A stretch of DNA of 44,085 nucleotides from Alistipes sp. Its GTDB lineage: Bacteria > Bacteroidota > Bacteroidia > Bacteroidales > Rikenellaceae. Position numbers and translations under genes: made by a program. Shown one piece after another: positions 136-36,105 of the stretch. The DNA lies in the NCBI GenBank assembly GCA_017520545.1, contig JAFXFM010000024.1, forward strand, positions 1 through 44,085, written 5' to 3'. The notes beneath the pieces are model-generated. The model was not told the origin of the DNA, did not search any database, and worked only from the letters and a program-made list of their open reading frames with translations. Position 1 is the stretch's first letter. Each line of letters begins with the position of its first letter.

Positions 136-294
136 CGGAAAACTGAAAACGGAAAGCGGAAAACTTTTAGTTTTTTCGGTTTTTGCTTGGAGTGAGAAAA
201 CGGAAGCGACGCCAAACCGAGTGCAAAGCGGGCTTGCACGCTATGCCGAGGTGCGAAGGAGCAAAAGCCTGCGCAGCAGGATTAAAACGGAAAA
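136..294 (+). repeat. Dispersed intergenic element, copy 1
   Basis: Begins with four heptamers (CGGAAAA, CTGAAAA, CGGAAAG, CGGAAAA at 136-163), then CTTTTAG, a T-rich stretch and a TTGCTTGGAGTG segment. The core holds a hairpin GTGCAA/TTGCAC near 220-240. A second hairpin CCTGC-GCA-GCAGG near 268-280 is followed by ATTAAAACGGAAAAC. The same order of parts recurs at 26209-26360 and, partly, at 27752-27815 and 35894-36105. It fills the gap between ispH and the BspA-like gene. No convincing protein is encoded. Confidence 0.85.
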
Positions 295-339
295 CATTAC
301 AAAACCGCTTAAACTTTTGCGACTTTCTGAACAAGTTGC

Positions 340-347
340 TATATTTG
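340..347 (+). promoter_or_regulatory. Bacteroidetes -7 box for the BspA-like gene
   Basis: TATATTTG matches TAnnTTTG and lies 42 bp before the ATG at 390. No good TTTG -33 box is seen at the usual distance. Confidence 0.6.
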
Positions 348-389
348 CGGTGATTATCCGTCGAACAAATAACAAGATACCAAATATCT

Positions 390-2561
390 ATGAAGAGACT
401 ATTTCTACTACTATTCGCTTTGCTGCCGATGATAGTGTCAGCACAGAATTCAACCTCCGACAACAATGTAATACGGTACACAACTACCGATAACGAGGTG
501 CTAAATACGGAGTTTGTTTGGAATGCGAACTTAATCTCTAACACCTATGCAGATGGACAAGGTATTATGATACTCGATAAACCTATTACTTCGATTGGAT
601 ACAGAGCATTCAACGACTGCACCTAGCTAAAAAGTATTAAAATTCCGAATGGCGTTACTTCGATTGAAGGTAGCGCATTCTCCGGTTGCACCTCGCTGTC
701 AAGTTTTTATGGAAAATTTGCATCGGAAGACAATCGTTGTTTGATAAAGGATGGAGTATTGTTAGCATTCGCCCCTAGTGGATTAACCGAATATACAATT
801 CCTAATAGTGTTACTAAGATTGGATGGGGTGCATTCGACGGTTGCACCTCGCTGAAAAGTATTACTATTCCTAATGGCGTTACTTCGATTGGGAAGTGGG
901 CATTCTCTGGTTGCACTTCGCTAGCAAGCATTACAATCCCGAACCGTGTTGCTGAGATTGGAGAGGATGCATTCGACGGTTGCACCTCGCTGAAAAGTAT
1001 TACTATTCCTAATGGCGTTACTTCGATTGGGAAGTTGGCATTCTCTGGTTGCACCTCGCTAACAAGTATTACTATTCCTACTAGCGTTACTGAGATTGGA
1101 GAGAAAGTATTCTACGGTTGCACCTCGCTGAAAAGTGTTAAAATTCCTAATAGCGTTACTGAGATTGGAGGGGGTGCATTCTCGGGATGCACCTCGCTGA
1201 CAAGTGTTACAATTCCGAATAGCGTTACTTCGATTGAAAGTTCTGCATTCGAAGATTGCACCTCGCTGACAAGTATTACAATTCCGAATAGTGTTACTAA
1301 AATTGGATCTGAGGCATTCTCCGGTTGCACCTCACTGACAAGTATTACAATTCCGAATAGCGTTACTTCGATTGAAAGTTCTGCATTCGAAGATTGCACC
1401 TCGCTACCTGTAATAGATGGACTACAATACGCTGATACATATTTGGTAGGAGCGGTATACAGAGCACGTACATCATATTCAATAAGAAAAGGAACAAGAT
1501 TTATTGGATCTAATGCATTCCAAGATTGCACTGCGCTGACAAGTATCAAGATTCCTAATAGCGTTATTTCGATTGGAGATGTTGCTTTCTACGGCTGCAC
1601 TTCACTAATAAGTATTTCTATTCCTAATAACGTTACTTGGATTGGATATGAAGCATTTTCGGGTTGCACTTCACTGAAAAGTGTTACAATTTCCGATAGC
1701 GTTACCGAGATTGGAAGTTCTGCATTTTCGGGTTGTTCAAATCTCAAATCTGTATATATTTCAGATTTAGCATCGTGGTGCAAAATTGATTTTATGTACG
1801 ACGAATTTTTTCACGATAGCAATCCACTATCGAATGGTGCAGAATTATACCTAAATAATCAAAAAGTTGTAGATTTAGTTATTCCTTCTGATATTACAGC
1901 GATAAAAGATCGCGCATTTAATAATTGTAGTAGCCTCAAAAGTGTAACAATCTCTGATAGCATTACTTGGATTGGATATGAAGCATTCTGTAATTGTTAC
2001 AATCTAACAAATGTGACCATACCCGATAGTGTCAAACAAATTGGAGAATACGCATTCGCGAAATGCGAGAAACTAAGCACTATTAGCATATCCAATAAAG
2101 TTGCAGACATTGAGCCTAATGCATTTATTGATTGCTCGTCATTGCCCATTATTGACGATATAAGATATGCCGGTGTATGTTTGGTAGAAGTTGCTAATAA
2201 AAGCCTATCTTCATATAAAATTCGAAAAGGAACTCGCATTATAGGTGCCTACGCGTTCGCTGATTGTAAACAGATGAAGAGCCTTGTAATTCCTGACAGT
2301 ATTACTTCGATTGGCGAATGCGCATTCTCTCAATGTAATTCAATGGAAAAACTCTATTGTCGATCTTTAACACCGCCATATGCAGCATTCGCAGAATACG
2401 AAGGCGGATTTCGTAATGATATTTGGCATTCATGGGAACCATTTAATGATACATTTGTCTTAAAGACACTGATTTGTGTGCCACGAGCATCGGTGACGGT
2501 ATATAAAACCACAGAGAATTGGAAATGGTATGCAGACAATATCGTTGGCTACGACTTTTAA
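390..2561 (+). pseudogene. BspA-like leucine-rich repeat surface protein, interrupted by an amber codon
   Basis: One open frame of 724 codons broken only by TAG at 624-626 (codon 79). The stop falls in a repeat where other copies read TGC ACC TCG CTG and this one reads TGC ACC TAG CTA, so a single C-to-A change (TCG to TAG) explains it. Before it lie a signal peptide (MKRLFLLLFALLPMIVSAQ) and the usual N-terminal region. After it the frame resumes (next start-like codon TTG at 741) with about 21 repeats of 23 residues in all, consensus [18 protein letters not shown].GC, and the common C-terminal tail with [10 protein letters not shown]. BspA-type TpLRR proteins are secreted or surface proteins involved in adhesion. 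Either a recent pseudogene, a phase or strain variant, a readthrough case or a sequencing error. TAG is a normal stop in other genes here. Confidence 0.8.
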
Positions 2562-2586
2562 ACAGAAAATTGCGCAATTTAATAAC

Positions 2587-2670
2587 GGCAAGTAAGGGCA
2601 AGTAAGGGCCATTAAAGGCTAATAAGGGTATGCGCTTTTCTTTACTAGCCGTTACTAGCCATTAGCTACC
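2587..2670. repeat. Inverted pair of decamer arrays
   Basis: Four 10-nt units in a row, GGCAAGTAAG, GGCAAGTAAG, GGCCATTAAA, GGCTAATAAG (2587-2626), are followed by units of the same family on the other strand (TTTACTAGCC, GTTACTAGCC, ATTAGCTACC, 2641-2670). The arrangement could fold as a long imperfect hairpin just after the BspA-like gene. Confidence 0.8.
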
Positions 2671-2720
2671 CTTAATCTGTTGCGCCGTGACAACCCTCGG
2701 AGTCCGCACAACAGACACCA

Positions 2721-2758
2721 CCCTCGGCAGAGTTTCTATTCTGCGGAGGGTTGTTTTT
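2721..2758 (+). terminator. Rho-independent terminator-like hairpin
   Basis: CCCTC-G-GCAG, a ten-base loop, then CTGC-G-GAGGG and TTGTTTTT. It lies 160 bp after the BspA-like stop codon, between the two decamer array pairs. Confidence 0.6.
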
Positions 2759-2781
2759 AAGGGCGGGGAGATTGTTGGAAT

Positions 2782-2900
2782 GGTTTGTAAGGGCTAATAG
2801 TGGCTAGTAAGGGCAAGTAAGGTAAGCGACAATAACACACAAATAAATTCTTTACTCGCCCTTAATGGCCTTTACTTGCCGTTAATAGCCCTTATTGCTA
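2782..2900. repeat. Second inverted pair of decamer arrays
   Basis: Forward units GGTTTGTAAG, GGCTAATAGT, GGCTAGTAAG, GGCAAGTAAG (2782-2821). Reverse units TTTACTCGCC, CTTAATGGCC, TTTACTTGCC, GTTAATAGCC and a weaker fifth unit (2851-2900). With the first pair this fills most of the 466-bp gap 2562-3027; no gene is visible there. Confidence 0.8.
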
Positions 2901-2977
2901 ATAGGCATCATTCAACGCCGGCCGTCATTTTTTTCAAAAATTCTCAACTCTTAATTATAATTTTTCGTTTTTTTTGT

Positions 2978-2985
2978 TATATTTG
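2978..2985 (+). promoter_or_regulatory. -7 box for the sensor kinase operon
   Basis: TATATTTG (TAnnTTTG) 42 bp before the ATG at 3028. The upstream side is T-rich with no clear TTTG. Confidence 0.55.
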
Positions 2986-3027
2986 CAAAATATAAAAGGC
3001 GTGTAAAACCTTAAACAAAACCTAAAT

Positions 3028-4074
3028 ATGTTGAGAATTAAGACAAAAGAGGCCGGTTCGTGGCTTATCGGAGCTGTGGCAGGAGTGTGCGCAATGGTTA
3101 TTACTTTGCTGACACTCAATCTCCAAGAGTTGTGGTGGGTGGTAATTATAGCCACCGTCGGAACATTTGTGGGCGTTTCGCTCTTTGCGTTACTCATTAT
3201 GACCAAATATGTGGCGTACAAGTTGCGCCCCGTATACTCGATGGTATTTTCGCGCGATGTTCACACTGCGGAGCTGCTCGACGAGTTGAAGGATAAGCGC
3301 GTGGAGAACATCTCGCAGGAGCTCTCATCGTGGGCAGAGGATAACGACAAGGAGATTGCTCGCTTGAAGGACGTGGAGAAGTTCCGCAAACAGTACCTCG
3401 GAAATGTTGCTCACGAGTTAAAAACCCCTGTATTCAACATTCAGGGCTATATTTCGACCCTGCTCGATGGCGGCATTGACGACGAGATTATAAATCGCAA
3501 ATATCTCGAACGCGCCGAGAAGAGCGTAAATCGTATGATAAACATCATTCGCGACCTCGACACCATCTCGTCGCTCGAAAACGATATGGAGATGATGAAG
3601 TCGGAGAGTTTCGACATCGTGGCTCTCGCCAAGGAGATTGCCGAGCAGTGCGAAATGGAGGCTGCAAAGAAGAATATCACTATCACTGTGAAGTTTGCGC
3701 AAAATCTACCTTCGCGTTTCTGGGTTTCGGCGGATAAGTTCTACATCGGTCAGGTGCTCGAAAACCTCATCATCAACGCTATACGCTACGGCAAAGAGGG
3801 TGGAATGGTTAAGCTCGACTTCCGCGATATGCTCGACAAAATTTTGATTGAGGTGGAAGACAACGGCATCGGCATCGCCAAGAGCGACGCACCACGCGTC
3901 TTCGAGCGCTTCTACCGCACCGACACAGGTCGTTCGCGCGAACAGGGTGGCACCGGACTCGGCTTGGCTATCGTTAAGCACATTGTCGAGGGGCACGGTG
4001 AGCGCGTATCGGTACGCAGCGAATTGGGCGTAGGCTCGACATTTACATTTACACTTAAAAAAGTAGAGTTATAA
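3028..4074 (+). CDS. Membrane sensor histidine kinase (PhoR-like)
   Basis: 348 residues. Two membrane helices with a very short loop fill residues 12-60, so there is almost no outside sensor domain. The kinase core follows: H-box HELKTP with His near residue 129, N-box NLIINAIRYG, G1 DNGIGI, F-box FERFYRTD and G2 GTGLGLAIVKHIVEG. It should autophosphorylate on His and pass phosphate to a response regulator, but no regulator gene is in the window. It heads an operon with lgt, 3 nt downstream. The short sensor part suggests it reads a membrane or partner-protein signal. Start: the first ATG, 42 bp after a -7 box. The family is clear; the stimulus is unknown. Confidence 0.93.
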   Translation: MLRIKTKEAGSWLIGAVAGVCAMVITLLTLNLQELWWVVIIATVGTFVGVSLFALLIMTKYVAYKLRPVYSMVFSRDVHTAELLDELKDKRVENISQELSSWAEDNDKEIARLKDVEKFRKQYLGNVAHELKTPVFNIQGYISTLLDGGIDDEIINRKYLERAEKSVNRMINIIRDLDTISSLENDMEMMKSESFDIVALAKEIAEQCEMEAAKKNITITVKFAQNLPSRFWVSADKFYIGQVLENLIINAIRYGKEGGMVKLDFRDMLDKILIEVEDNGIGIAKSDAPRVFERFYRTDTGRSREQGGTGLGLAIVKHIVEGHGERVSVRSELGVGSTFTFTLKKVEL

Positions 4075-4077
4075 GGT

Positions 4078-4956
4078 ATGAATTTTCTGACGGTAGTTTG
4101 GGATTTCGACCCCACACTCATCAACATCGGTGGGTTTGAAATCCGCTGGTACTCATTGACTTGGGTTGCTGCACTCCTCTTCGGAGGTTGGTTATTCTCC
4201 TATTTCTGCAAGCGTGAGGGCAAGCCACAAGAGGTTTCGGATACGGCATTTTTATATATTGCCCTCGGCACTATCATTGGCGCCCGCGTAGGACACTGCC
4301 TATTCTACGAACCTATGGAGTATCTGCGCGAACCGTGGAAAATCATCACAGGTATTCGCGACGGAGGTCTTGCCAGCCACGGAGCCACTATAGGCATCTT
4401 GCTTGGCATCTGGCTCTCGTCGCGCAAGAACAAAGTTTCGGTATGGTGGACAGCCGACCGCCTTGGCATTATCGCCCCATTGAGCGGCGCAATGATTCGC
4501 TTTGGCAACCTCTTCAACTCGGAGATTATCGGCAATCAGACAACTATGCCGTGGGGATTTAAGTTTATGCGTCTCTATCCGAATTGGCCCGTAGACAAAG
4601 TACCTGCGTGCCACCCGACACAACTCTACGAGGCGTTGTGCTACATCATCTGCTTCATCGTTTTGTTCCTACTATACCGCAACACCAAGATCGCCAAACG
4701 CGAAGGCTTCATCTTTGGTGCAGCATTGGTAGGCATCTTCCTGCCACGATTCTTTATCGAGTTCGTGAAGATTAACCAGGTAGCATTCGAGGAGGGTATG
4801 ACGCTCAATATGGGACAATGGCTCTCGGTGCCATTCGTACTGGTAGGCACCGCCGTAATGATATGGTCGTGGTATCGCTATAAGGGCGAGCCAGTAGCAG
4901 CACAGAGTGCGCCAAGTGTCAAAACCCCTAAAAACAAGCGACACTTCAAGAAGTAA
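4078..4956 (+). CDS. lgt: Prolipoprotein diacylglyceryl transferase
   Basis: 292 residues, polytopic inner membrane enzyme with about seven helices. It moves diacylglycerol from phosphatidylglycerol to the lipobox cysteine of prolipoproteins, the first step of lipoprotein maturation. Lgt hallmarks are visible: GGLASHGATIGIL with the essential His, the IRFGNLFNSEIIG version of the Lgt signature, and HPTQLYEA. The C terminus after residue 270 is a basic tail (KTPKNKRHFKK). Many genes here encode proteins with lipoboxes that would be its substrates (for example the products from 7558, 11452, 24374, 41949 and 44002). Its stop TAA shares one base with the next ATG (TAATG), so translation is probably coupled. 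Confidence 0.95.
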   Translation: MNFLTVVWDFDPTLINIGGFEIRWYSLTWVAALLFGGWLFSYFCKREGKPQEVSDTAFLYIALGTIIGARVGHCLFYEPMEYLREPWKIITGIRDGGLASHGATIGILLGIWLSSRKNKVSVWWTADRLGIIAPLSGAMIRFGNLFNSEIIGNQTTMPWGFKFMRLYPNWPVDKVPACHPTQLYEALCYIICFIVLFLLYRNTKIAKREGFIFGAALVGIFLPRFFIEFVKINQVAFEEGMTLNMGQWLSVPFVLVGTAVMIWSWYRYKGEPVAAQSAPSVKTPKNKRHFKK

Positions 4957-5930
4957 TGAAACAGCAGATTGATAATCTCATAGCCAACTTACTCCTCGAC
5001 GAGGGCGAAGTGTTTTTACCAAAGGTAGGAACACTCATCTTGTATCGCCACGCAACAAAGAGACTCTCTTCGTCGAAGATGCAACGCTCCTTCCGAGAAC
5101 TACGACTCACAGCCGAGAAGCGAGGCGTGAATATCGCTCTGCATATCGCAAAAATAGCCTCCATATCGGAGGAGCGTGCCACCGACATCTACACCGAATG
5201 GTTCGAGCAGTCGATGCGCAACGAGGTTTTAAGCATTGGAGGCGTATGCATCATCAAAGATGGCAAGATAGAAACAGACAATACATTTGAGAATATGGCA
5301 AATCCGAAGGGACGCAATGTTATCGAGATAAATCCGCGTCCAAACTACCTTATATATATATTGCTGGGAGTGCTTATTGGGCTTATTTTGGGCGCCTACG
5401 GTTTCTACCACTATGCAAGTGGCTCGTTCGACAATATGCTCAAAGGGCAGACAATAATTCCAACCTCGGAGGTATTGACAGAGGCTTCGAGCGAGAAGAC
5501 AACACCTGCCGAGGCAGATGTTGTAGCCGAGCCTGCAACCACCACAGAGCAACCTGCCGATGAAGTAGAAAAGGGGGCGAAAGATGTTGTCGAGCAAACC
5601 ACAGAACAGACCACAGAGCCTATGGCAGTGGAGTCGGCAGAGTCTAAGGCCGAACCGAGTGCCAAGGCGGAGATTACAAAGTTAAAGAGGGGTTATAGTT
5701 ATGCCGTATGGGGAGTATATCGAGAGTTGAAGAACGCCGAGGAGGCTATCGAGTGGCTATCGGAAAAGTTCCCCGATTTGAAGGGTAATATCTATCGTCA
5801 CGGCGAACGATACTATATGGTTACGTTGTTTGAATATCCTTCGCGTTCGAAGTGTCAGCAGAAAGTCGCAGCGTGGAAGAGAGAGCATCGTAACAGTTCC
5901 CGAAATGTGTGGGTACACACCCAATCATAG
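4956..5930 (+). CDS. HU-like domain / transmembrane / SPOR-like protein
   Basis: 324 residues. Residues 1-120 resemble the HU-like (CCDC81-type) domain found in Bacteroidetes membrane proteins (for example FLPKVGTLIL). One membrane helix follows (YLIYILLGVLIGLILGAYGFY), then a long acidic Thr/Glu-rich linker (about 170-235), then a SPOR-like end with YSYAVWGVYRELKNAEEAIE and YYMVTLFEYPSRSKC. SPOR domains bind denuded septal peptidoglycan, so the protein may link the cytoplasmic face to the cell wall at division sites. That role is inference. It overlaps lgt by one base and is followed 9 nt later by the GtrA gene. Family assignment comes from pattern, not from a search. Confidence 0.75.
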   Translation: MKQQIDNLIANLLLDEGEVFLPKVGTLILYRHATKRLSSSKMQRSFRELRLTAEKRGVNIALHIAKIASISEERATDIYTEWFEQSMRNEVLSIGGVCIIKDGKIETDNTFENMANPKGRNVIEINPRPNYLIYILLGVLIGLILGAYGFYHYASGSFDNMLKGQTIIPTSEVLTEASSEKTTPAEADVVAEPATTTEQPADEVEKGAKDVVEQTTEQTTEPMAVESAESKAEPSAKAEITKLKRGYSYAVWGVYRELKNAEEAIEWLSEKFPDLKGNIYRHGERYYMVTLFEYPSRSKCQQKVAAWKREHRNSSRNVWVHTQS

Positions 5931-10597: not shown

Positions 10598-11452
10598 TTA
10601 TTTTCGATAGACGATTATTCTTTCGGTCATTGATATTGGTATCACACTTTCGTTCTTATATTTAACACGTTCGACCCAATTACCTTGCGAGTCGTATTTG
10701 TAGAGGTATTTACCATTCTGCAAGCCGTTGCGATTATAATCAACTACCTCTATCAGTTTATCCTGCGAATCGTATTTTCCTATTCGTTTCTCTCTCAACA
10801 AGCCGTTACTGTTGTATTTCGCCTCCTCTATCTTATTGTCCATCGAATCGTATGTGTAGAGATATTTCTCTATCAGCGAGCCGTCACTGTTGTATTCGGC
10901 CTCCTCTATTATATTGTCCATCGAGTCGTATTTGTAGAAGTATTTACCACTCAGCGAGCCGTCGCTGTTGTATTCAGCGATCTCTATCAGTTTATCCTGC
11001 GAGTCGTATTTGTTGAGCAATCTACCACTCAGCGAGCCATCGGTGTTGTAAACAGCTATCTCTATCAGTTTGCCCTGCGAGTCGTATTCGCCGAGTAATT
11101 TAAACAACAACGTACCGTCGTGGTTATAATGAGCCTCTTCTATCTCATTGCCTTTCGAGTCATATTTGTAGATAGTTTTCTCTTTCAGCGAGCCGACACG
11201 GCTGTATTTAGCTTCCTCTACAACATCGCCATTCATATTGAATTTATATACCACTTTATCAGCAACTCTTTTTTTGACAATCTCACCATATTTTTCGGTA
11301 AGATTATCATATTTGGTAATTGTAATACTATCGATATCGCCATATAGAGGGCAATCAAAATCGTCATACCAACCGAATCTTTCGGGAGCTGTTGTACACG
11401 AAGTAGCAACAAGCAATGCCACCAATGCTGCAAATAAAAATGATTTTTTCAT
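10598..11452 (-). CDS. Lipoprotein with seven 26-residue YD-type repeats
   Basis: 284 residues. The signal MKKSFLFAALVALLVATSC gives a lipobox (ATSC), so the protein should be lipid-anchored. From about residue 90 to 270 it has seven repeats of 26 residues with consensus KYDSQDKLIEIAEYNSDGSL followed by six residues such as SGKYLY. Such YD-like strands form beta-solenoid or RHS-like sheets, as in MORN-like and other Bacteroidetes antitoxin or surface repeat proteins. The DNA repeats with a 78-bp period, so copy number could change by slippage. Single gene with its own promoter. Function unknown. Confidence 0.82.
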   Translation of the reverse strand: MKKSFLFAALVALLVATSCTTAPERFGWYDDFDCPLYGDIDSITITKYDNLTEKYGEIVKKRVADKVVYKFNMNGDVVEEAKYSRVGSLKEKTIYKYDSKGNEIEEAHYNHDGTLLFKLLGEYDSQGKLIEIAVYNTDGSLSGRLLNKYDSQDKLIEIAEYNSDGSLSGKYFYKYDSMDNIIEEAEYNSDGSLIEKYLYTYDSMDNKIEEAKYNSNGLLREKRIGKYDSQDKLIEVVDYNRNGLQNGKYLYKYDSQGNWVERVKYKNESVIPISMTERIIVYRK

Positions 11453-26199: not shown

Positions 26200-26208
26200 G
26201 TGATAAAA

Positions 26209-26360
26209 CGGAAAACGGAAAGCGGAAAACGGAAAACTTTTAGTTTTTCGTTTGGAGTGGAAAGCGGAACCGACGACAAACCGAGAGCAGAGGGCGCTTG
26301 CGCACTTTGCCGAGGTGCGAAGGAGGAAAAGACTGCGAAGCAGGATTAAAACGGAAAACT
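26209..26360 (+). repeat. Dispersed intergenic element, copy 2
   Basis: Four heptamers CGGAAAA, CGGAAAG, CGGAAAA, CGGAAAA (26209-26236), then CTTTTAGTTTTTCG and TTTGGAGTGG. The core has CGAGAGCAGAGGGCGCTTGC and hairpin CTGC-GAA-GCAG, and it ends GGATTAAAACGGAAAAC. Same order as copy 1, with about the same length. The stem in the middle differs (GCGC/GCGC here). Confidence 0.85.
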
Positions 26361-26367
26361 TTTTTGA

Positions 26368-26477
26368 TGACATTGAATGACAATTTTGATAGGGAGGGTG
26401 TAAGCAGTCAGTAGACTGCGCTATCATTGAACGCCATTCTATGTCATTAAGGGCGAAGCCCGAATGCCATTTAATGC
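26368..26477. repeat. Degenerate decamer words
   Basis: Units such as TGACATTGAA, TGACAATTTT (26368-26387), CATTGAACGC, CATTCTATGT, CATTAAGGGC (26425-26454) and CATTTAATGC (26468-26477) are spaced mostly by 10 nt. The match is weaker than in the other arrays. Confidence 0.5.
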
Positions 26478-26490
26478 CACGCCATACACA

Positions 26491-26510
26491 GGGTATCGTT
26501 TTCGATACCC
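26491..26510. repeat. Perfect 8-bp stem palindrome
   Basis: GGGTATCG-TTTT-CGATACCC, in the gap after the Sel1 gene. It could be an operator or an RNA hairpin. Confidence 0.6.
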
Positions 26511-26528
26511 ACGAGGGCGGAGGGGAGC

Positions 26529-26554
26529 AAAAAAAAGCGACCAGAAGGTCGCTT
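26529..26554 (-). terminator. Terminator of the Sel1-repeat gene
   Basis: Minus strand: AAGCGACC, loop TTCT, GGTCGCTT, then a T run (plus-strand A at 26529-26536). Confidence 0.9.
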
Positions 26555-26575
26555 AATCTACGCATAAAACGCTGA

Positions 26576-27604
26576 TTACCAAACTACTCCCATATCGTTA
26601 AGTCTTAGTTTCGCATCGGTATAATTTTGCTCAGCCGCCTTACGATACCACGTTATCGCCTCGTCGCGATTTGGCGTTACACCTTGACCCTTCTCGTAAC
26701 ATTGACCCAACATATATTGCGACTTAGCATCTCCCTGCTCGGCATACTTGCGAAACCATTTTACTGCTTCGGTGTAATTTTTAGCAATACCATACTTTCC
26801 TTCATAGTAACAACTTGCTAAAAGACTCAGCGCTTTCCAACTTCCATTTTCAGCAGCCTTTTGCCACCACTTTAAAGCCTCAACACTATTCTTTGTTAAG
26901 CCCAGGCCTTCGCAGTAACACACTCCTAAAGCGTGTTGCGCCGAGGCGTATCCCTGCTCGGCAGCCTTGCGATACCATCTTACTGCCTCAACATAGTCTT
27001 TGATTACACCGCTGCCACTGTAGTAGCACGAACCTAATCTATATTGCGCCTCGGCAAGCCCCAGCTCGGCAGCCTTATGAAAGAATTTTACTGCCTCGGC
27101 ATAGTTCCTGGTTACACCCTTACCAGTAAGGTAGCACAGGCCTAAAACATTTTGCATCTTGGCGTCGGCGGGATCATCCTCGGCAACCTTACGAAACCAC
27201 CTTACTGCCTCTGCATAGTCTCTGGTTACACCCCTACCATTGTAGTAGCAATATCCGAGATCGTATTGCGCTTCGGCAAACCCCTGCTCCGCAGCCTTGC
27301 GAAACCATTTTACTGCCTCGGTATAGTCTTTGGTTACACCCCAAAGACCACTTTCGTAACATCTGCCCAATAGGTATTGCGCCTCGGCCACACCTCGCTC
27401 CGCAGCCTTGCGAAACCATTTTACTGCCTCGGCATAGTCTTTGGTTACACCCTGACCACTTGCGTAACATCTGCCCAATTTGTATTGCGCCTCGGCCACA
27501 CCTCGCTCCGCCTGAGCTTTCAACTCGTTGATATTTTGAGCCGAGAGCGAAAGTGGCATCAATAGGCCGGCAATCGCCACCAAAAGTTTAGCATAAAGCA
27601 TCAT
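26576..27604 (-). CDS. Secreted Sel1-repeat protein
   Basis: 342 residues. The signal peptide (LLVAIAGLLMPLSLSAQ) is followed by about eight Sel1 repeats of 36-38 residues. Consensus AEAQYKLGRCYASGQGVTKD then YAEAVKWFRKAAEQG. Sel1 repeats are TPR-like helical pairs that form a curved solenoid for protein contacts. The signal peptide points to the periplasm or surface. The genomic repeats are similar in DNA too (CCTTGCGAAACCATTTTAC occurs several times), so unit number may vary between strains. Own promoter and terminator. Two Met at the start; the first is used. Confidence 0.92.
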   Translation of the reverse strand: MMLYAKLLVAIAGLLMPLSLSAQNINELKAQAERGVAEAQYKLGRCYASGQGVTKDYAEAVKWFRKAAERGVAEAQYLLGRCYESGLWGVTKDYTEAVKWFRKAAEQGFAEAQYDLGYCYYNGRGVTRDYAEAVRWFRKVAEDDPADAKMQNVLGLCYLTGKGVTRNYAEAVKFFHKAAELGLAEAQYRLGSCYYSGSGVIKDYVEAVRWYRKAAEQGYASAQHALGVCYCEGLGLTKNSVEALKWWQKAAENGSWKALSLLASCYYEGKYGIAKNYTEAVKWFRKYAEQGDAKSQYMLGQCYEKGQGVTPNRDEAITWYRKAAEQNYTDAKLRLNDMGVVW

Positions 27605-27645
27605 ATTGTCGAATGTTTAAGTTTACTATTGTAGTTATTCAATCG

Positions 27646-27676
27646 CAAATATAGCGATTTATTCAGAAAGCACAAA
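27646..27676 (-). promoter_or_regulatory. Promoter of the Sel1-repeat gene
   Basis: Minus strand TTTG at 27676-27673, 19-bp spacer, TATATTTG at 27653-27646. A full consensus match. Confidence 0.75.
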
Positions 27677-27695
27677 ATTGCGCAAAATAATTAAG

Positions 27696-27815
27696 GGTTA
27701 TTAAAGGTAATTAAACACCCCTATTCCCTCCTATAATAGCACAACTCAAAAGTTTTCACCCTCCAAGCGAAAACCGAAAAACAAAAGTTTTCCGCTTTCC
27801 GTTTTCCGTTTTCCG
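27696..27815 (-). repeat. Two decamers and a partial reversed copy of the dispersed element
   Basis: GGTTATTAAA and GGTAATTAAA (27696-27715) are decamer units. From 27752 to 27815 the minus strand reads the four heptamers (plus strand TTTTCCG, CTTTCCG, TTTTCCG, TTTTCCG at 27788-27815), then CTTTTGTTTTTCGG and CGCTTGGAGGGTGAAAAC, matching the first half of element copy 1. The hairpin core and the GCAGGATTAA end are missing. Confidence 0.75.
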
Positions 27816-27824
27816 ATTTTTTAT

Positions 27825-27832
27825 TATATTTG
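27825..27832 (+). promoter_or_regulatory. -7 box of znuB
   Basis: TATATTTG, 20 bp before the ATG at 27853. The -33 position (27802-27805) is TTTT from the heptamer array, spacer 19. Confidence 0.6.
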
Positions 27833-27852
27833 TGCGTTATATTTAGGTAGAG

Positions 27853-28698
27853 ATGGATTTTTTAGCTGACATACAACAATATCAGTTTCTGTCGAACGCC
27901 CTGATTGCGTGTATTCTTTCGGGCATAACTTGCGGAATTATTGGCACATACATCGTCGCAAAGCGTATGGTGTTCCTCTGCGGAGGTATTACGCACGCTT
28001 CGTTTGGTGGTCTGGGCATCGCGTTGTACCTAAACGCCAACCCCATACTTGGAGCAACAATTTTTGCCATTCTCTCAGCCCTCGGCATCGAATGGAGCAA
28101 CTCCCGCTCGAAAATTCGTCCCGACTCGGCAATAGGTATGGTGTGGGGTGTAGGTATGGCGATAGGTGCGCTCTTCATTTCGCTCCGCCCGGGCTACACA
28201 TCGGGCGATATGGCAAATTTCCTATTCGGAAACATTCTGACCGTAACCGACGGTGATATCATCGCACTTGCTGCACTCGCTATCGTGCTGATAGTCGGCG
28301 CCTTGCTTTGGCACCGACAGATAATGTTCGTAGCCTTCGACCGCAACTTTGCCGAGGTGTCGGGCATATCGGTAAAGTTGATAAACTACGCAATGGCGGT
28401 CGTTACGGCAATTACAATCGTCTTTTCGATACGCACAATGGGCATCGTACTGCTTATTTCGTTGCTCACGATGCCGGTAGTTTCCGCCAACATCTTATTC
28501 AAAGATTACAAGCGCATTATACCCGCCTCGGTATTGATAGCCATTTTGGCAAGCATTGCCGGCCTTTGGTTCAGCTACCACACCGACGCACCGTCGGGTC
28601 CGGCAATAATTTTCATACTCACTTTGGCATTTTTAACAATAAAATTGTTATCTTTGTCTGTTAAACGATTGAAACGCACAAAAACAAAGGCTGCATAA
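27853..28698 (+). CDS. znuB: Zinc/manganese ABC transporter permease, ZnuB-like
   Basis: 281 residues with about eight membrane helices. Typical ABC-3 family motifs: IVAKRMVFLCGGITHASFGG near residue 40, GMVWGVGMAIGALFI, GNILTVT and SIRTMGIVLLISLLTMP. It forms the metal path in the inner membrane and needs an ATPase and a binding protein. None is adjacent: the matching znuA and znuC are at 41949-43582. The next gene (LptF/G) begins 6 nt after it. The promoter lies right after an inverted element copy. Confidence 0.9.
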   Translation: MDFLADIQQYQFLSNALIACILSGITCGIIGTYIVAKRMVFLCGGITHASFGGLGIALYLNANPILGATIFAILSALGIEWSNSRSKIRPDSAIGMVWGVGMAIGALFISLRPGYTSGDMANFLFGNILTVTDGDIIALAALAIVLIVGALLWHRQIMFVAFDRNFAEVSGISVKLINYAMAVVTAITIVFSIRTMGIVLLISLLTMPVVSANILFKDYKRIIPASVLIAILASIAGLWFSYHTDAPSGPAIIFILTLAFLTIKLLSLSVKRLKRTKTKAA

Positions 28699-31161: not shown

Positions 31162-31183
31162 TATAGTTGCTTTACTTGACATC

Positions 31184-31199
31184 GTAAATGATTATTTAC
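31184..31199. promoter_or_regulatory. Inverted repeat upstream of serC
   Basis: GTAAAT-GATT-ATTTAC, 21 bp before the serC ATG. It could bind a regulator; no TAnnTTTG box is visible near it. Confidence 0.4.
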
Positions 31200-31219
31200 A
31201 CTATAAAAACAATAAAGCT

Positions 31220-32293
31220 ATGAAAAAGCACAATTTCAGCGCGGGACCTTCTGTATTACCAGAGGTTGCACTCGAAAACGCAGCAAAAGCGATTTTTGAC
31301 TTTAACGGTACCGGCATTTCGGTACTTTCGTATTCACACCGCAGCAAGGAGTTCGAGGCGGTATTGGCAGAGGCAAAGGCTCTCTTCCGCGAGTTGCTGA
31401 ATATCCCTGAGAATTACAAAATTTACTTCGTAGGTGGTGGAGCCAGCACACAGTTCTTCCATATTCCCGCAAACTTCCTCGGAAAGAAGGCGGGTTATGT
31501 AAATACGGGCGTTTGGACAAAGAAGGCCATCAAAGAGGCGAAGTATTATGGCGAGGTAGAGGTTGTCGCATCGAGCGAGGATAAGAACTTCTCGTACATT
31601 CCGAAGGGCTTTGAGATTCCGAGCGACTTGGACTACTTATATATCTGCTCGAACAACACTATCTACGGTACTGAATATAAGGTGGATATGGATTGTCCTG
31701 TACCATTGTTTGCCGATATGTCGTCGGATATATTGAGCCGTCCTGTCGATGTTTCGAAGTACGCCCTCATCTATGGTGGCGCACAGAAGAACCTCGCACC
31801 TGCGGGCGTTACCTTCGTAATTGTACGTGAGGATATGCTCGAAAAGGTGGTTCGTCCGTTGCCAACAATGATGAATGTTAATACCCACGTCGAGAACGAC
31901 TCGATGTTCAACACGCCTCCGGTATTCCCAATCTTCGTGTTGAACGAGACGTTGAAGTGGTTGAAGTCTATCGGTGGCGTCGAGGAGATGTATCGTCGCA
32001 ACGTGGAGAAGGCAGAGATTCTCTACAACGAAATCGAGCGCAACTCGTTGTTCCGTCCAACCGTAGCGAAAGAGGATCGTTCGTTGATGAATATCTGTTT
32101 CGTGATGACCGAAGGCAACGAGGATTTGGCACCTGAGTTCTTGGAGTTTGCCAAGGAGCGCGGTATGGTGGGTATCAAAGGACACCGTCTTGTAGGAGGC
32201 TTCCGTGCTTCGTGCTACAACGCTTGTCCGAAGGAGTCGGTAGAGGCTCTCGTGGCTTGTATGCAGGAGTTTGAGCAGTTGAAAACAAAGTAA
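31220..32293 (+). CDS. serC: Phosphoserine aminotransferase
   Basis: 357 residues from ATG 31220 ([20 protein letters not shown]). Class V aminotransferase: [23 protein letters not shown], the PLP lysine in [11 protein letters not shown], and [14 protein letters not shown] near the end. It converts 3-phosphohydroxypyruvate to phosphoserine. A longer in-frame reading starting in fmt is rejected because it would be read through a repeat. It is followed 4 nt later by serA, so the two phosphorylated-serine steps are coupled. Confidence 0.95.
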
Positions 32294-32297
32294 CCAT

Positions 32298-33296
32298 ATG
32301 GCAACTATCGTTCCATACACCTTCGAGAAGAAGGAGGAAAAGATTGTACACTTTACATCATTGATTAAGGGTATGAAAGTTCTTATTGCAACCGAGAAGC
32401 CGTTTGCTCGCGAGGCGGTAAACGGCATTAAAGAGATTTTGCAGGCGGCAGATTATGAGGTCGTACTGCTCGAAAAATATACGGATAAGGGCGAGTTGCT
32501 CGCTGCCGTAGCCGATGTCGATGCACTTATTGTGCGTAGCGACAAGGTTACCAAGGAGGTGTTGGAGGCTGCCAAGAACCTCAAAATCGTTGTTCGTGCC
32601 GGCGCAGGCTTCGACAACGTTGATTGTGAGGAGGCAAAGCAGCGCGGTGTCGTGGTGATGAACACCCCGGGTCAGAACTCGAACGCTGTGGCGGAGTTGG
32701 CACTCTGCTTTATGGTCTACATATCGCGCAATCAGCTCACTCCGGGCACAGGACACGAGCTCATTGGCAAGACCCTCGCAATTCACGCCTACGGAAACGT
32801 TGGCAAGTTGGTCGGTCGCAAGGGTAAGGCTCTCGGTATGAACGTCATCGCCTACGATCCATTTATCTCGGACGCTGCGGTATTCGAGGCTGATGGGGTA
32901 GAGAAGGTCGATTCGGTGGAGGAGTTGTACCGTCGCGCCGACTTCCTGTCGTTGCATATTCCTGCAACGCCACAAACAAAGGGCTCAATCGGTTACGACC
33001 TTGCAATGTCGATGCCGAAGGGTGCTACGCTCGTAAATACCGCCCGCAAGGAGGTCATTGACGAGGTGGGCTTGGCGAAGGCTATGGAGGAGCGTGAGGA
33101 TTTACACTATATCACCGACGTTGCTCCCGATGCTGCTGCGGAGTATGCCGAAAAGTTTGGCAAGCGCTACTTCGGAACACCGAAGAAGATGGGTGCCGAG
33201 ACTGCCGAGGCAAATATCAACGCAGGTTTGGCGGCTGCACGACAGATTGTAGATTATTTCGTAAACGGCGTTACACGCTTTCAAGTAAATAAATAA
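32298..33296 (+). CDS. serA: D-3-phosphoglycerate dehydrogenase, Lys-type
   Basis: 332 residues from ATG 32298. A second ATG at 32373 (MKVLIATEKPFAREAV) matches the usual start of shorter family members, so the first 25 residues are uncertain. NAD-binding Rossmann segment AIHAYGNVGKLVGRKGKALG, Arg in NTARKEVIDE, and the end TPKKMGAETAEANINAG. Most PGDHs have TPHIGAST there, with a catalytic His; Lys is in its place, as in the type IIIK enzymes described for Entamoeba and Bacteroidetes. No ACT domain, so it is probably not serine-inhibited in the E. coli way. Confidence 0.93.
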   Translation: MATIVPYTFEKKEEKIVHFTSLIKGMKVLIATEKPFAREAVNGIKEILQAADYEVVLLEKYTDKGELLAAVADVDALIVRSDKVTKEVLEAAKNLKIVVRAGAGFDNVDCEEAKQRGVVVMNTPGQNSNAVAELALCFMVYISRNQLTPGTGHELIGKTLAIHAYGNVGKLVGRKGKALGMNVIAYDPFISDAAVFEADGVEKVDSVEELYRRADFLSLHIPATPQTKGSIGYDLAMSMPKGATLVNTARKEVIDEVGLAKAMEEREDLHYITDVAPDAAAEYAEKFGKRYFGTPKKMGAETAEANINAGLAAARQIVDYFVNGVTRFQVNK

Positions 33297-33303
33297 AAGG
33301 CTT

Positions 33304-33331
33304 TTAGCCATTGGCCATTAGCCATTAGCTT
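33304..33331 (+). repeat. Heptamer array, four units
   Basis: TTAGCCA, TTGGCCA, TTAGCCA, TTAGCTT between serA and the DUF1015 gene. Confidence 0.7.
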
Positions 33332-33342
33332 TCTTTATAACT

Positions 33343-34578
33343 ATGGTAAAAATTAAACCATTCAAAGGTATTCGCCCACCGAAGGAGTTGGCGCACGAGG
33401 TGGCATCGCGCCCATACGACGTATTGAACTCAGCAGAGGCGAAGGCAGAGGCCACAGAGCGCTCACTGCTCCACATTATAAAACCGGAAATTGACTTTGA
33501 GCCTATCGCCGACGAGCACTCGCAGGAGGTTTACGATAAGGCGGTGGAGAACTTCGCAAAGTGGCGCAACGAGGGTTGGTTGCTGCAAGATGGCGAAGAG
33601 CACTACTACATCTACGCCCAGACAATGGACGGTCGTACGCAGTATGGTCTTGTAATGTGCTGCCATTTCGAAGATTACCTCTCGGGGGCAATCAAGAAAC
33701 ACGAACTCACTCGCACCGATAAGGAGGAGGACCGTATGCACCACGTACGCAACCAGAAGGCGAATATCGAGCCCGTATTCTTCGCATATCCCGACCATAA
33801 GGATATCGACGCAATCGTGGCAAAGGTTATCGCATCGGAGCCTGAATACGACTTCGTTGCAGAGGACGGCTTCGGACACACTTTGTGGGTAGTACCAAGT
33901 GAGTACAACGACCAGATAACCGCCATTTTCGACACTATTCCTGCGTTGTATGTTGCTGATGGACACCACCGTACGGCTGCGGCAGCGCGTGTGGGAGCGG
34001 AGTGCAAGAGCAAGAATCCGAACCATACGGGCGAGGAGGAATACTGCTACTTCTTGGCTGTTACGTTCCCAGAATCGCATCTCCGCATCATCGACTACAA
34101 CCGCGTAGTGCGCGATTTGAACGGCTTGAACGAGAAGGAGTTCCTCGCAGCTTTATCAGAGGATTTTGTGGTCGAGAAGGAGGGTAAAGAGATTTACAAG
34201 CCGAATGCTCTGCACAACTTCTCGATGTACTTGGCAGGCGAGTGGTACAGCCTCACAGCAAAAGAGGGCAGATATAACGATGCCGACCCGATTGGTGTCT
34301 TAGACGTTACGATATTATCCAACTTGGTATTGGATAAAATTCTCGGTATCAAAGATTTGCGCACATCAAAGCGCATAGACTTCGTGGGAGGTATTCGCGG
34401 TCTTGGCGAGTTGCAACAGCGTGTTGATTCGGGCGAAATGAAGGTTGCTTTTGCGCTCTATCCGGTTTCGATGCGCCAACTCATCGACATAGCCGATACG
34501 GGCAACATTATGCCTCCGAAGACCACGTGGTTCGAACCGAAATTGCGTTCGGGCGTTGTAATACATTCATTTGAATAA
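33343..34578 (+). CDS. DUF1015 family protein
   Basis: 411 residues. Starts MVKIKPFKGIRPPKELAHEV and has HELTRTDKEEDRMHHVRNQKAN and YVADGHHRTAAAARVGAE. The DGHHR motif resembles the ParB-like/SerK nucleotide-binding fold. The serC-serA-DUF1015 order is common in Bacteroidetes, suggesting a job linked to serine or phosphoserine, possibly a serine kinase-like activity (inference; no demonstrated reaction known to me for this member). It follows serA by 46 bp with a heptamer array between. Confidence 0.92.
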   Translation: MVKIKPFKGIRPPKELAHEVASRPYDVLNSAEAKAEATERSLLHIIKPEIDFEPIADEHSQEVYDKAVENFAKWRNEGWLLQDGEEHYYIYAQTMDGRTQYGLVMCCHFEDYLSGAIKKHELTRTDKEEDRMHHVRNQKANIEPVFFAYPDHKDIDAIVAKVIASEPEYDFVAEDGFGHTLWVVPSEYNDQITAIFDTIPALYVADGHHRTAAAARVGAECKSKNPNHTGEEEYCYFLAVTFPESHLRIIDYNRVVRDLNGLNEKEFLAALSEDFVVEKEGKEIYKPNALHNFSMYLAGEWYSLTAKEGRYNDADPIGVLDVTILSNLVLDKILGIKDLRTSKRIDFVGGIRGLGELQQRVDSGEMKVAFALYPVSMRQLIDIADTGNIMPPKTTWFEPKLRSGVVIHSFE

Positions 34579-34587
34579 CAACAGACG

Positions 34588-35904
34588 ATGAAACGACTTC
34601 TTTTAACCATAGCGACAGTGGCAATTGCCCTGTCGCTATTGGCTCAAACACCAAAACATACCGAGTGGAAGTTCTCCACAAAACGCACCGAGAAATATCT
34701 TGAAAATGGCGTGTATAAAGCCTCGACAGGCAAGGGCTCTATCAATTTTGTCGGCAAGAAGGCGACAGCTACAGTCGGAGTCAAAAGGGGATATCCGGCA
34801 GCCGAGAATACCCGCAAGGGCGACTATTGGTTGATGACTATTCCCGTCGAAAATCTCAAAGCGGGAACGGCAATAGATTTATGGTTGCCATTCCTCGCAG
34901 AGCCGAGCGACGAGCCTCACACCTTCACCTTCGAGTATCTCGATGACGGAAAGTGGCGGCCTGTAACTCCTGCCAACAAAAGCGGAGCTAACTGTACCTC
35001 GACAACATCGAAGAGTTGGCCTCGTATGCTTTGGCACACCATACGCCTCAACAATGGTGTACGAAGTGGCAACGTGCTGTTGCGCCTACGCCTCTGCGAC
35101 AAGAGGGTAGAGAAGTGTTCGCTATATGGCGGCACCTCGGGACAAGCACCGAAAATCGCCATTCTCGACGAGCAGATTCCGAGCGACACTACGCGCATAT
35201 TATTTATAGGTAACAGCTACACCTACTACAACCTCTATCCTATGCAGTTGAAAGAGTTGGCGTGGTATGAAGGACATTACCTCGATTGCGCCCTCTATTT
35301 CCACGGAGGTTACTCTATGAAGCGGCATCTTGCAGACCACGTCTCGCGCGAAACGGTCGAATTGGGCGGCTTTGATTATGCCTTCCTTCAAGGCCAGAGT
35401 ATCTCATCGCTCCGTATCGGCACCTCTGCCGACCAAAATGTAGTAGGAGAGATGGGTAAAATGGTTGATAGAGTTAAGAAATTCAGTCCAAAGGCAAAGT
35501 GTATTATAGAGATGACTTGGGGGCGCAGAGATGGCGATAACGCTACCAAGTCGAAAGCCTTACAGGATATCAAAACGGCACACCCAGAGTACTTTGAGAG
35601 CTATGAAGCTATGCAAAAGGTTATCACAGCCAATACTACTGCAATTGCTCAGAAGTTGGGCGTTGGACTCTCGCCTGTGGGTGTAGCGTGGAAGATTGTT
35701 CGACGTGAACGCCCCGACATCGAGTTGTATGTTAGGGACGGCTCGCACCCATCGGACGCGGGTTCGTATCTCGCAGCCGCAGTGGGTTATCTGACGCTCT
35801 TTAAGGAGCCATTCAAAGCGGATACACCCGTGCGCCTCGACCCCGAAGTTGCACGCTATCTGCGCAGCGTAGCCGAAAGGGTAGTATTGAAAGCGGAAAA
35901 CTGA
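34588..35904 (+). CDS. Secreted SGNH-like hydrolase with N-terminal beta domain
   Basis: 438 residues. Signal peptide (LLLTIATVAIALSLLAQ). Residues 25-200 form a beta domain of carbohydrate-binding type. Then comes an SGNH-like domain: block I IGNSYTYYN (Ser nucleophile candidate, with GNS in place of GDS), LQGQSISSLR, and block V DGSHPSDAGSYLAA with Asp/His. This layout matches DUF4886/SGNH sugar esterase-like proteins. The last four residues KAEN and the stop TGA lie in a CGGAAAA heptamer array. Substrate unknown. It starts 9 nt after DUF1015 and may ride on the serine operon. Confidence 0.85.
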   Translation: MKRLLLTIATVAIALSLLAQTPKHTEWKFSTKRTEKYLENGVYKASTGKGSINFVGKKATATVGVKRGYPAAENTRKGDYWLMTIPVENLKAGTAIDLWLPFLAEPSDEPHTFTFEYLDDGKWRPVTPANKSGANCTSTTSKSWPRMLWHTIRLNNGVRSGNVLLRLRLCDKRVEKCSLYGGTSGQAPKIAILDEQIPSDTTRILFIGNSYTYYNLYPMQLKELAWYEGHYLDCALYFHGGYSMKRHLADHVSRETVELGGFDYAFLQGQSISSLRIGTSADQNVVGEMGKMVDRVKKFSPKAKCIIEMTWGRRDGDNATKSKALQDIKTAHPEYFESYEAMQKVITANTTAIAQKLGVGLSPVGVAWKIVRRERPDIELYVRDGSHPSDAGSYLAAAVGYLTLFKEPFKADTPVRLDPEVARYLRSVAERVVLKAEN

Positions 35905-36105
35905 AAGCGGAAAACGGAAAACTGACGTAGCGGAGCGAGAGCAGAGGGCAAACTTGTTTGCACTATGACGAGCCGCAAGGAAGAAAAGACTGCAAAGCAG
36001 GATTAACGGAAAACTGACGCAGCGGAGCGAGAGCAGAGGGCAAACTTGTTTGCACTATGACGAGCCGCAAGGAAGAAAAGAGTGCAAAGCAGGATTAACG
36101 GAAAA
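35894..36105 (+). repeat. Dispersed element, copy 3, with a 92-bp tandem duplication
   Basis: Four heptamers (35894-35921) are followed by two tandem 92-bp units (35922-36013 and 36014-36105). They differ at two positions that I can see (gtag/gcag and gactgc/gagtgc). Each unit has GCAAAC-TT-GTTTGC, CGAGCCGCAAGG and CTGC-AAA-GCAGGATTAACGG. The second unit has GTGC instead of CTGC in the last stem. The array also holds the end of the SGNH gene. Confidence 0.88.

Follow-up and report, generated by a model that had tools for sequence, protein, structure and literature searches.

The DNA of Alistipes sp. contains a mobile double-hairpin unit of 79–88 bp, which runs from CCGACG to G(A/G)TTAA with the layout CCGACG-HP1-AA-HP2-AA, where HP1 and HP2 are two adjacent hairpins, and which represents a new family of small non-autonomous mobile hairpin repeats. 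The mobility of the unit is close to certain, and on balance it appears to be a small non-autonomous element with the two hairpins as its sole content. The window, that is, the whole 44,085-bp stretch of DNA that was analyzed, contains four units, two single ones and a tandem pair (Table 1).

Table 1. Units and target sequences in the window (R1, covariance model of the unit)
Feature	Position	Strand	Description
Target module left of unit 1	136..205	+	heptamer array and T-rich/TTGGAGTG segment
Mobile double-hairpin unit 1	206..285	+	80 bp, GCGACG...GGATTAA; HP1 206-262, HP2 268-280; R1 match, E 3.7e-17
Target heptamer right of unit 1	286..295	+	AACGGAAAAC
Target module left of unit 2	26209..26269	+	heptamers and T-rich/TTGGAGTG segment
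Mobile double-hairpin unit 2	26270..26349	+	80 bp, CCGACG...GGATTAA; HP1 26270-26326, HP2 26332-26344; R1 match, E 1.0e-18
Target heptamer right of unit 2	26350..26360	+	
Target module without unit	27752..27815	-	heptamers and T-rich segment; inverted relative to 26209-26269
Heptamer array left of unit 3a (target)	35889..35921	+	unit-free version present in genome G005
Mobile unit 3a	35922..36006	+	85 bp, CTGACG...GGATTAA; HP1 35922-35983, HP2 35989-36001; R1 match, E 8.5e-12
Single heptamer between units 3a and 3b	36007..36013	+	CGGAAAA
Mobile unit 3b	36014..36098	+	tandem copy of 3a, one heptamer apart; HP1 36014-36075, HP2 36081-36093; R1 match, E 2.0e-10
Heptamer array without unit	36432..36461	+	orthologous array of genome G080 has a unit after the base matching 36446

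The preliminary description of this DNA had listed copies of an element at 136-294, 26209-26360 and 35894-36105. Their CGGAAAA-type heptamers, the central hairpin stem that differs between copies and stays paired, and the CTGC-nnn-GCAG stem followed by GGATTAA are all found in the sequence, as is the T-rich segment with a TTGGAGTG-like sequence in the first two copies and in a reversed partial one. The copy at 35894-36105 is, however, two tandem units 92 bp apart (98% identity across this period, repeat pair D10), and the proposed extent, from the heptamers to GGATTAA, takes in target as well as element, the unit itself running from CCGACG, GCGACG or CTGACG to TTAA. Among the sites listed, the surrounding repeat varies by genome and by site, which places the CGGAAAA heptamers and the T-rich segment outside the element, in the target. 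The constancy of the right end is partly by construction, since the search pattern required TTAA. The reversed partial copy, seen as inverted pairs I1, I2 and I4 in the repeat comparison of the window, is better read as a target module that is free of a unit; the R1 scan of the own genome gave no match there, and another unit-free module like that at 136-205 is found in locus L010, adjoining an occupied one. The array at 36432-36461 had been overlooked. Within the window, GCNNNGCAGGATTAA with at most one mismatch occurs 4 times against 0.26 expected and CGGAAARCGGAAA with at most two mismatches 19 times against 2.7 expected, and none of 100 shuffles reaches either count.

The stems are under selection for structure. 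Both sides change in 17 of 20 pairs, 97.6% of the cells are paired, and 0 of 500 shuffles match this, which is in line with the dispersed, non-coding family with covarying stems proposed at the outset. The loop of HP1 is mostly of the CTTG type and that of HP2 is a triloop among the sites listed, and the ends, CCGACG and GRTTAA, form no terminal inverted repeats by eye. The folding strand is the CCGACG...TTAA strand: among 122 cores it folds better than the complementary strand in 112 with RNA parameters and in 118 with DNA parameters, and it carries 31 G-T cells versus 11 A-C cells. Folding stability as DNA is unremarkable in two of three window units tested (z −0.09 and −0.28). Some units fall within called ORFs (5/33 in the own genome and 18/129 in relatives with ORFs of 100 aa; 45/171 with ORFs of 80 aa), which may be explained by crude ORF calling.

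An RNA-mediated route, in which the transcribed unit folds and a trans-acting reverse transcriptase copies it back at a nick beside TT/AA, with the terminal AA of the unit base-paired to TT in the target, would agree with the strand preference computed for RNA and with the excess of G-T cells, although DNA parameters favor the same strand. It would also agree with a weak gene-direction bias, as units are codirectional with tandem genes in 69 cases versus 40 (p 0.007, ORFs of 80 aa), or 61 versus 28 with ORFs of 100 aa (12 versus 8 in the own genome, 49 versus 20 in relatives). However, this bias is absent from the own genome by itself (13 versus 12), and arrays without a unit show the same lean, which is not significant (47 versus 38). 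For RVT_1, the own genome gave a single partial match of 30 bits, just above the cut-off, in a frame whose distal, C-terminal part we take to be nitrilase-like and which presumably resembles a defense-type reverse transcriptase. Movement through RNA is considered unlikely.

The insertion junction was read at 143 sites drawn from 222 nhmmer matches, leaving out partial matches starting past model position 3, flanks shorter than 60 bp, duplicates, 2 matches without a recognizable left end and 26 without G[AG]TTAA (including variant HP2 ends). The inserted sequence is the unit alone, placed immediately 3′ of an AA at nearly every site, with A at −2 in 100% and at −1 in 96% (6 sites have no A at −1). 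At 88 of these sites the same heptamer resumes in phase (score of at least 0.85) with zero offset and at none with an offset of ±1, while 200 shuffles of the right flank gave a mean of 23.7 in-phase sites and a maximum of 35; the other 55 sites show no heptamer phase at this score. Phase at period 7 is kept around window units 1 (L009, score 1.0) and 2 (L001, score 0.86). The targets comprise many unrelated period-7 arrays (most sites), 9-mer arrays, other palindromic repeats and other units, giving nested units (L037, L038 and L043), and units also form head-to-tail chains, e.g., L102.

The AA at both ends of the unit fits either no target duplication or a 2-bp AA duplication, and nothing longer was seen of the flanking target duplications that had been suggested as a check. 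A 7-bp duplication, which would leave an in-phase heptamer on both sides, was rejected, as four further sites that continue 9-mer arrays (L081, L154, L159 and L170) keep period 9 across the unit. It is further contradicted by the non-array matches to empty versions of L074 with the right flank of L082 and of L030 with the right flank of L165, and by some empty orthologues, in which the array is already present. The four 9-mer sites also show up at period 7 with an offset of −2.

Recombination of duplex DNA at a 2-bp AA core by an IS110-type or large-serine-type enzyme, with the unit as a minimal substrate, would account for the AA on the left and the pattern-required TTAA on the right, for the lack of a longer duplication and for the head-to-tail chains. 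IS110 transposase is, however, absent from the own genome and present in only 5 of 101 genus genomes, and covarying hairpins are not expected of the substrates of such enzymes, so that this route appears distinctly unlikely.

Mobility is seen from comparison of orthologous sites. A syntenic counterpart elsewhere (both flanks aligned, identity below 98.5%, gap below 500 bp) was found for 48 unit sites and was empty for 33, occupied for 17 and of both kinds for 2; the occupied counterparts are largely reciprocal pairs, counted from both sides, and some of the “empty” ones differ also in the array or in other sequence. The window differs in occupancy in each direction: the site of units 3a and 3b is empty in G005 and G080, and one site that is empty here is occupied elsewhere. 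When the unit is removed, lengths become equal, with one mismatch at the join, both for L156 against L273 of the own genome and for L160 of G080 against window position 36446. Core identity of at least 0.962 links 307 site pairs, in 157 of which the near flanks are dissimilar on both sides, and one 85-bp core is shared without any difference by a TGCAAAA array in another genome and four CGGAAAA-type sites of the own genome.

Passive spread, in which recombination or slippage between similar heptamer arrays carries along units that are not mobile themselves, could draw on the abundance of variable arrays (109 period-7 arrays in 444 kb) and on the tandem pair one heptamer apart. It is hardly credible, since identical or nearly identical units with the same ends lie in unrelated arrays and in non-array targets, one unit may lie within another, and the non-array AA sites already contradict it.

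The own genome contains 75 covariance-model matches (E ≤ 0.01), which bears out the expectation of further copies, and units are present in 67 of 101 genus genomes, the own included. At most 46 candidates were scored per genome in this survey, and per-genome counts of 44–46 are therefore lower bounds; one search for units scored 40 of 139 candidates. Across the order, 10 of 343 other genomes gave 1–5 weak matches, with 13 candidates per genome scored under strict filters, and three genomes of another genus of the same family gave no match. The hosts are gut bacteria related to Alistipes. An Rfam scan of the window returned tRNA only, and that of six unit-bearing loci (E ≤ 1) returned tRNA and a below-threshold mir-3003 match in L024 (2317-2388), away from the unit; Rfam and the open PMC literature thus agree with the earlier view that the repeat belongs to no named family.

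The loci fetched contain no visible autonomous copy in which the two ends enclose a gene. By pattern, 6 of 184 right-end motifs are without a left partner: three belong to the nested units L037, L038 and L043, one has a variant left end (L053), one is located where its locus ends (L162), and one is a lone right half (L120) with no left-end-like motif in 2.46 kb upstream. Left-end motifs without a right partner number 56 of 244, and by eye these are mostly ordinary coding matches, the rest being nested, variant or cut units.

The TnpA_REP-type transposase that had been put forward as a possible mobilizer is not supported, as a Y1 transposase is absent from the own genome and present in 1 of 101 genus genomes. 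A REP-type element, mobilized by TnpA_REP (RAYT) or an IS200/IS605 enzyme whose Y1 gene is now lost or external, would have shape-conserved hairpins, an AT-rich right end like the target and no long target duplication, as observed here. Y1 genes are frequent elsewhere in the order (133 of 198 genomes), and loss of the reptron is described for E. coli in the cited passages of PMC6006769. Nevertheless, identical units lie at different sites within a genus where 100 of 101 genomes are without Y1, and a subset of 31 of the Y1 loci found gave no R1 match at E ≤ 10. GTAG is found within 6 nt of either end in none of 143 cores, while it occurs inside 29. Lagging-strand bias is also absent, the local GC skew being positive on the unit strand for 15 of 33 own units and 57 of 119 units of relatives, although this test is weak because local skew tracks gene direction (correlation 0.53 and 0.57). 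A lost or external Y1 transposase is quite improbable as the explanation.

No candidate for the enzyme that moves the units was thus found among the Y1 and IS110 transposases of the genus genomes. The preferred reading, held with slightly better than even confidence, is insertion of single-stranded DNA that is recognized by its shape. An enzyme supplied in trans would recognize the folded single strand through its variable stems, conserved purine-rich mismatches, terminal C-G foot and GAGGAAAAG linker, and would join the unit ends at AA, by analogy with the Y1 transposases that act on REP and IS200/IS605 hairpins. It would differ from any Y1 or IS110 enzyme detectable in these genomes.

The unit resembles GTAG REPs and REPINs, which depend on TnpA_REP, in being a short, high-copy, non-autonomous palindrome with compensatory stem changes and no long target duplication. 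It differs from them in its length of 79–88 bp, its two unlike hairpins and the lack of a terminal GTAG, as well as in the near absence of Y1 genes from the genus and the absence of units beside those examined. Like IS200/IS605-derived (PATE-like) elements, the unit inserts 3′ to a short target with zero offset, with a 2-bp AA duplication possible. An A-rich stretch before HP2 can pair with the TT of TTAA in some folds, while HP1 starts right at the left junction, where the guide that lies upstream in IS200/IS605 ends would have no space. Classical MITEs differ in that the unit has no terminal inverted repeats by eye and no duplication longer than AA.

Porphyromonas gingivalis is likewise a member of the Bacteroidales. 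Its BrickBuilt MITE, as presented in the cited part of PMC4596501, is a minisatellite of 23 nt that has small inverted-repeat ends; it is similarly intergenic and combines tandem repeats with a MITE, whereas the ends of the present unit are not inverted repeats and the tandem repeat belongs to the target. Direct repeats of period 7 such as TAACTGA, described as mostly intergenic (PMC4679880, relevant passages), are likewise heptanucleotide arrays. Those of the present genomes consist of many different heptamers, which differ at orthologous sites and receive insertions of a hairpin unit. The cited sections of PMC3733652 describe CGTC-tagged REPs from Bacteroidetes and other phyla, which reportedly lack a dedicated transposase as well and in some cases lie inside other palindromes. 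As characterized in those sections, however, they are single stems of 8–9 bp with loops of 4–5 nt, tails mostly fitting CCA and mainly head-head dimers, in contrast to the two hairpins, CTTG-type loop and triloop, TTAA end, head-to-tail chains and AA target of the present unit.

Specialists would not expect a target rule of this kind, with units concentrated in heptamer arrays that have many different sequences. Bacterial hairpin repeats, to our knowledge, are mostly either linked to a Y1 transposase or lacking in demonstrated mobility. Here mobility is visible in occupied and empty orthologous sites, in nesting and in identical units in unrelated targets, within a genus that is almost free of Y1, so that the mover of orphan hairpin repeats, such as CGTC REPs and organellar double hairpins, becomes testable in one group.

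The mitochondrial double-hairpin elements, reportedly described by Paquin in 2000, are said to share the double-hairpin shape. Yeast GC clusters, according to the cited passages of PMC4478555, are tiny mobile non-coding sequences with a short direct repeat, AG or ACT, and a mobilizer that is not established. The likeness of the unit to both is one of architecture and behavior alone (tiny, non-coding, mobile; PMC4478555, same passages), and those elements are organellar, while the present units reside in a bacterial chromosome, mostly in heptamer arrays. It may tentatively be suggested that the unit is a bacterial counterpart of the mitochondrial double-hairpin elements. It would then be a minimal mobile nucleic acid with a conserved two-hairpin shape as its only content, which would be moved by an undescribed class of trans-acting enzyme or an undescribed process and would use period-7 arrays of arbitrary sequence, turning over fast at gene borders, as landing pads.

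The repeated unit of the window, a core of 79–88 bp running from CCGACG to GRTTAA and containing two hairpins (HP1, then HP2), is a double-hairpin element, mobile but non-autonomous, that inserts after AA. The preliminary description had included the heptamers in its extent, but among the matches listed the core stays constant while the flanking short repeat changes, being CGGAAAA, TGCAAAA, AATTAAG, TTGTGAA, TTGAGAA, AGACGAG or GGCCAAT, or a 9-mer such as TAACGCCCC. The boundaries were analyzed on 222 hits (201 distinct, 173 loci), of which 143 distinct sites (33 from the own genome, i.e. the assembly of this contig, and 110 from others) are recognisable at both ends and have 60 bp of flanking sequence, the right-end TTAA being part of the search pattern. 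The base at -2 is A in 143/143 sites and that at -1 in 137/143. When the core is removed and the flanks are joined, the same heptamer continues in phase (≥85% across the junction) with zero offset at 88 of the 143 sites, as against a mean of 23.7 and a maximum of 35 when right flanks are shuffled among sites (200 times); at an offset of +1 or -1 it does so at 0/143, and a 9-mer array is continued across the unit in 4 more sites. This continuation shows that the net insertion equals the core. A 2-bp target duplication, compatible with AA at both unit ends, is possible.

Inspection and repeat searches of the window confirm the dispersed copies. The third consists of two tandem units, and the reversed partial copy has the heptamers and T-rich segment and carries nothing else. 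A repeat-rich gene sits between inverted target modules (a heptamer array plus T-rich segment, with or without the unit); in the match from the relative G080 the flanking genes are just 29 bp apart, so the interval 26209–27815 is missing there. Other repeats of the window are included in the table.

Features and their coordinates (window positions unless a locus, L, is named)
Feature	Position	Details
Units, + strand	206–285; 26270–26349
Tandem units, + strand	35922–36006; 36014–36098	period 92 bp = 85 bp unit + single heptamer CGGAAAA
Reversed heptamers and T-rich segment	27752–27815
Additional heptamer array	36432–36461
Repeat-rich gene	26576–27604	target modules within 26209–27815
Divergent intergenic spot	26206–27853; L320–L326	CTCTCAA L320; GTTGAGA/TCTCGTC L323; AAAATGC L325; AATTGAG-like L324; none L326
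Ten-base GGCAAGTAAG-like repeats	2580–2887	inverted copy 232 bp off
69 bp and 78 bp repeats inside large ORFs	586–2326 and 10688–11245
Unit-hosting palindromic repeat	L145 5290–5580; L095, L112, L133, L155, L163, L171
RT-like frame	L234 1507–3255 (G000:C20)	in-frame stop, nitrilase-like C-terminal part

Further copies are found throughout the own genome (1.93 Mb, 24 contigs): a DNA search with 26209–26360 as query gives 67 pieces at E ≤ 10, and R1, a covariance model built from 24 diverse cores, gives 75 places at E ≤ 0.01, a number that falls to 48 at E ≤ 1.6e-9; some of them are unit chains at contig ends. Across the genus, with up to 46 candidates per genome scored, R1 matches at E ≤ 1e-4 occur in 67 of 101 genomes, own counted; among other genomes of the order they occur in 10 of 343, with 1 to 5 apiece. 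A pattern scan of named genomes gives at least 99 stretches, and the 80 matches listed come from Alistipes and Rikenellaceae MAGs, with 4 labelled Bacteroidaceae and 1 uncultured Bacteroidales; the hosts given in their titles are ruminants. The viral contigs searched gave no match. The preliminary description gave no named family, and literature searches of open PMC papers likewise turned up no account of the unit.

Mobility is evident from orthologous sites, from near-identical units in different targets, from nested insertions and from the range of target types. Among 214 distinct unit sites in the DNA fetched, 48 could be paired with a syntenic site in a different genome by alignment of the two flanks (<98.5% identity). 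At least one counterpart is empty for 33 and at least one occupied for 17, both kinds existing for 2; occupied pairs are mostly counted twice, once from each side, and several empty counterparts are inexact, the array being also altered or absent. L156 from a relative matches own L273 in exact length once the unit is removed, with one mismatch at the join. Likewise, the unit in G080 and L160 follows the base matching 36446 of the additional window array, compared over 36435–36461, with length exact and a single mismatch at the join. The relatives G005 and G080 are without the tandem pair and keep heptamers at the spot. L143 and own L265 differ by the presence of the unit and also in the heptamers. 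Near-identical units (core identity ≥0.962) form 307 site pairs; the 25-bp flanks are unlike each other (<0.55) both left and right of the unit in 157 pairs and alike (≥0.8) both left and right in 8; an identical 85-bp core is shared by L077 (a TGCAAAA array in another genome) and own L026, L027, L031 and L036. Nested insertions are present in L037, L038 and L043, where a unit lies in front of another unit's GCC, and in L038 CGCCAA is still present on the other side. Own L034 and L180 are an orthologous site occupied in both, with different unit subtypes and heptamers.

Period-7 arrays of many different heptamers number 109 (3,206 bases) in 444 kb of own DNA (L265–L284 plus the window), against a mean of about 1 in two Markov shuffles, with 0–14 arrays at each of the remaining periods between 5 and 12 (period 5: 14, shuffles 9). 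They make up 0.7% of this DNA, yet 22 of the 33 own sites (88/143 overall) are heptamer-phased; 20 of the 109 arrays adjoin one of the 33 units. Different heptamers at orthologous intergenic spots across genomes indicate that the arrays turn over too. At the divergent spot the array differs by relative and lies just upstream of what we take to be Bacteroidetes -7 boxes. A second dispersed palindromic repeat (~150 bp, AAATCGG...AAATTTTG...CAAAATTTACC...CGATTT) hosts the unit at one fixed point in seven places, and the six other host loci have just 105–252 bp in common with L145 of 5 kb compared; it occurs without the unit in L281 (own) and L137. A third target repeat, GTCCCCCTTTGCCAAAGGGGGATTTAGGGG, is unit-bearing in L074 and empty beside the unit of L082.

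The stems covary, as the preliminary description had suggested. In the RNAalifold consensus of 24 sequences, compensatory changes are seen in 12 of the 20 pairs, and among 111 distinct sequences aligned to R1 both-side changes occur in 17 of 20 pairs, compared with 6.9 (sd 1.4) in shuffles, 0/500 of which reach 17. In this alignment, whose fitting to the structure favours the structure, paired cells are 97.6% vs 86.4% shuffled and the covariation score is 0.294 vs 0.101; in slid structures pairing drops to 25–43%. At the foot of HP1, C1-C2 pair with GG of AGGAGG, and T at position 2 can accompany GGAAG (window 35922). HP2 stems among the matches listed are mostly CCTGC/GCAGG, and also CCCTC/GAGGGG, CCGCC/GGCGG, GACC/GGTC and others. 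In L016, L017, L020, L028, L029, L039 and L042 the unit is a variant, GCCGCGATTAAG...GCGGTGAAGCCCGAAGGGCAA, that has one more stem on the outside; it is often chained ahead of a standard unit, and several of these copies are near contig ends. Stability alone is modest, with mean z of -2.2 (RNA) and -2.0 (DNA) for 60 cores and, for window units, -0.09, -0.28, -2.12 (DNA) and -0.44, -2.78, -1.45 (RNA). On the unit strand, G-T cells number 31 vs 11 for A-C, and this strand is stabler than its complement in 112/122 cores with RNA parameters and 118/122 with DNA parameters. The difference exceeds what composition gives, its mean in 60 cores being -5.3 vs -2.5 kcal/mol in their shuffles (RNA) and -3.3 vs -1.1 (DNA). 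The G-T excess and the stability indicate that the folded strand, as ssDNA or RNA, is most likely CCGACG...TTAA.

The TnpA_REP-type transposase proposed as a candidate mobiliser was not found in the own genome: Y1_Tnp, the family of REP/IS200/IS605 systems, has 0 members there and is present in 1/101 genus genomes and in 133/198 order genomes. A search of the 31 Y1 loci listed (L174, L235–L264) with R1 gave no match up to E = 10. IS110 is not in the own genome and is found in 5/101 genus genomes, and in the loci fetched no unit copy enclosing a gene was seen. Unit strand does not follow local GC skew, which itself tracks gene direction; relative to genes, units show a weak lean towards the direction of transcription (69 to 40, p 0.007; own genome alone 13 to 12). 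The RT-like frame of L234 presumably resembles a defence RT, and the adjoining ORF looks, in our estimation, ThiF-like.

A putative enzyme acting in trans most likely recognises the unit in folded, single-stranded form. The unit's likeness to REP and IS200/IS605 ends lies in recognition of shape, probable for the unit, and in clean insertion, observed for it, while it departs from that family in both tag and transposase. Closest in kind are the CGTC REPs, which are reported to lack a transposase (PMC3733652), and the GC clusters and double-hairpin elements of organelles (PMC4478555).
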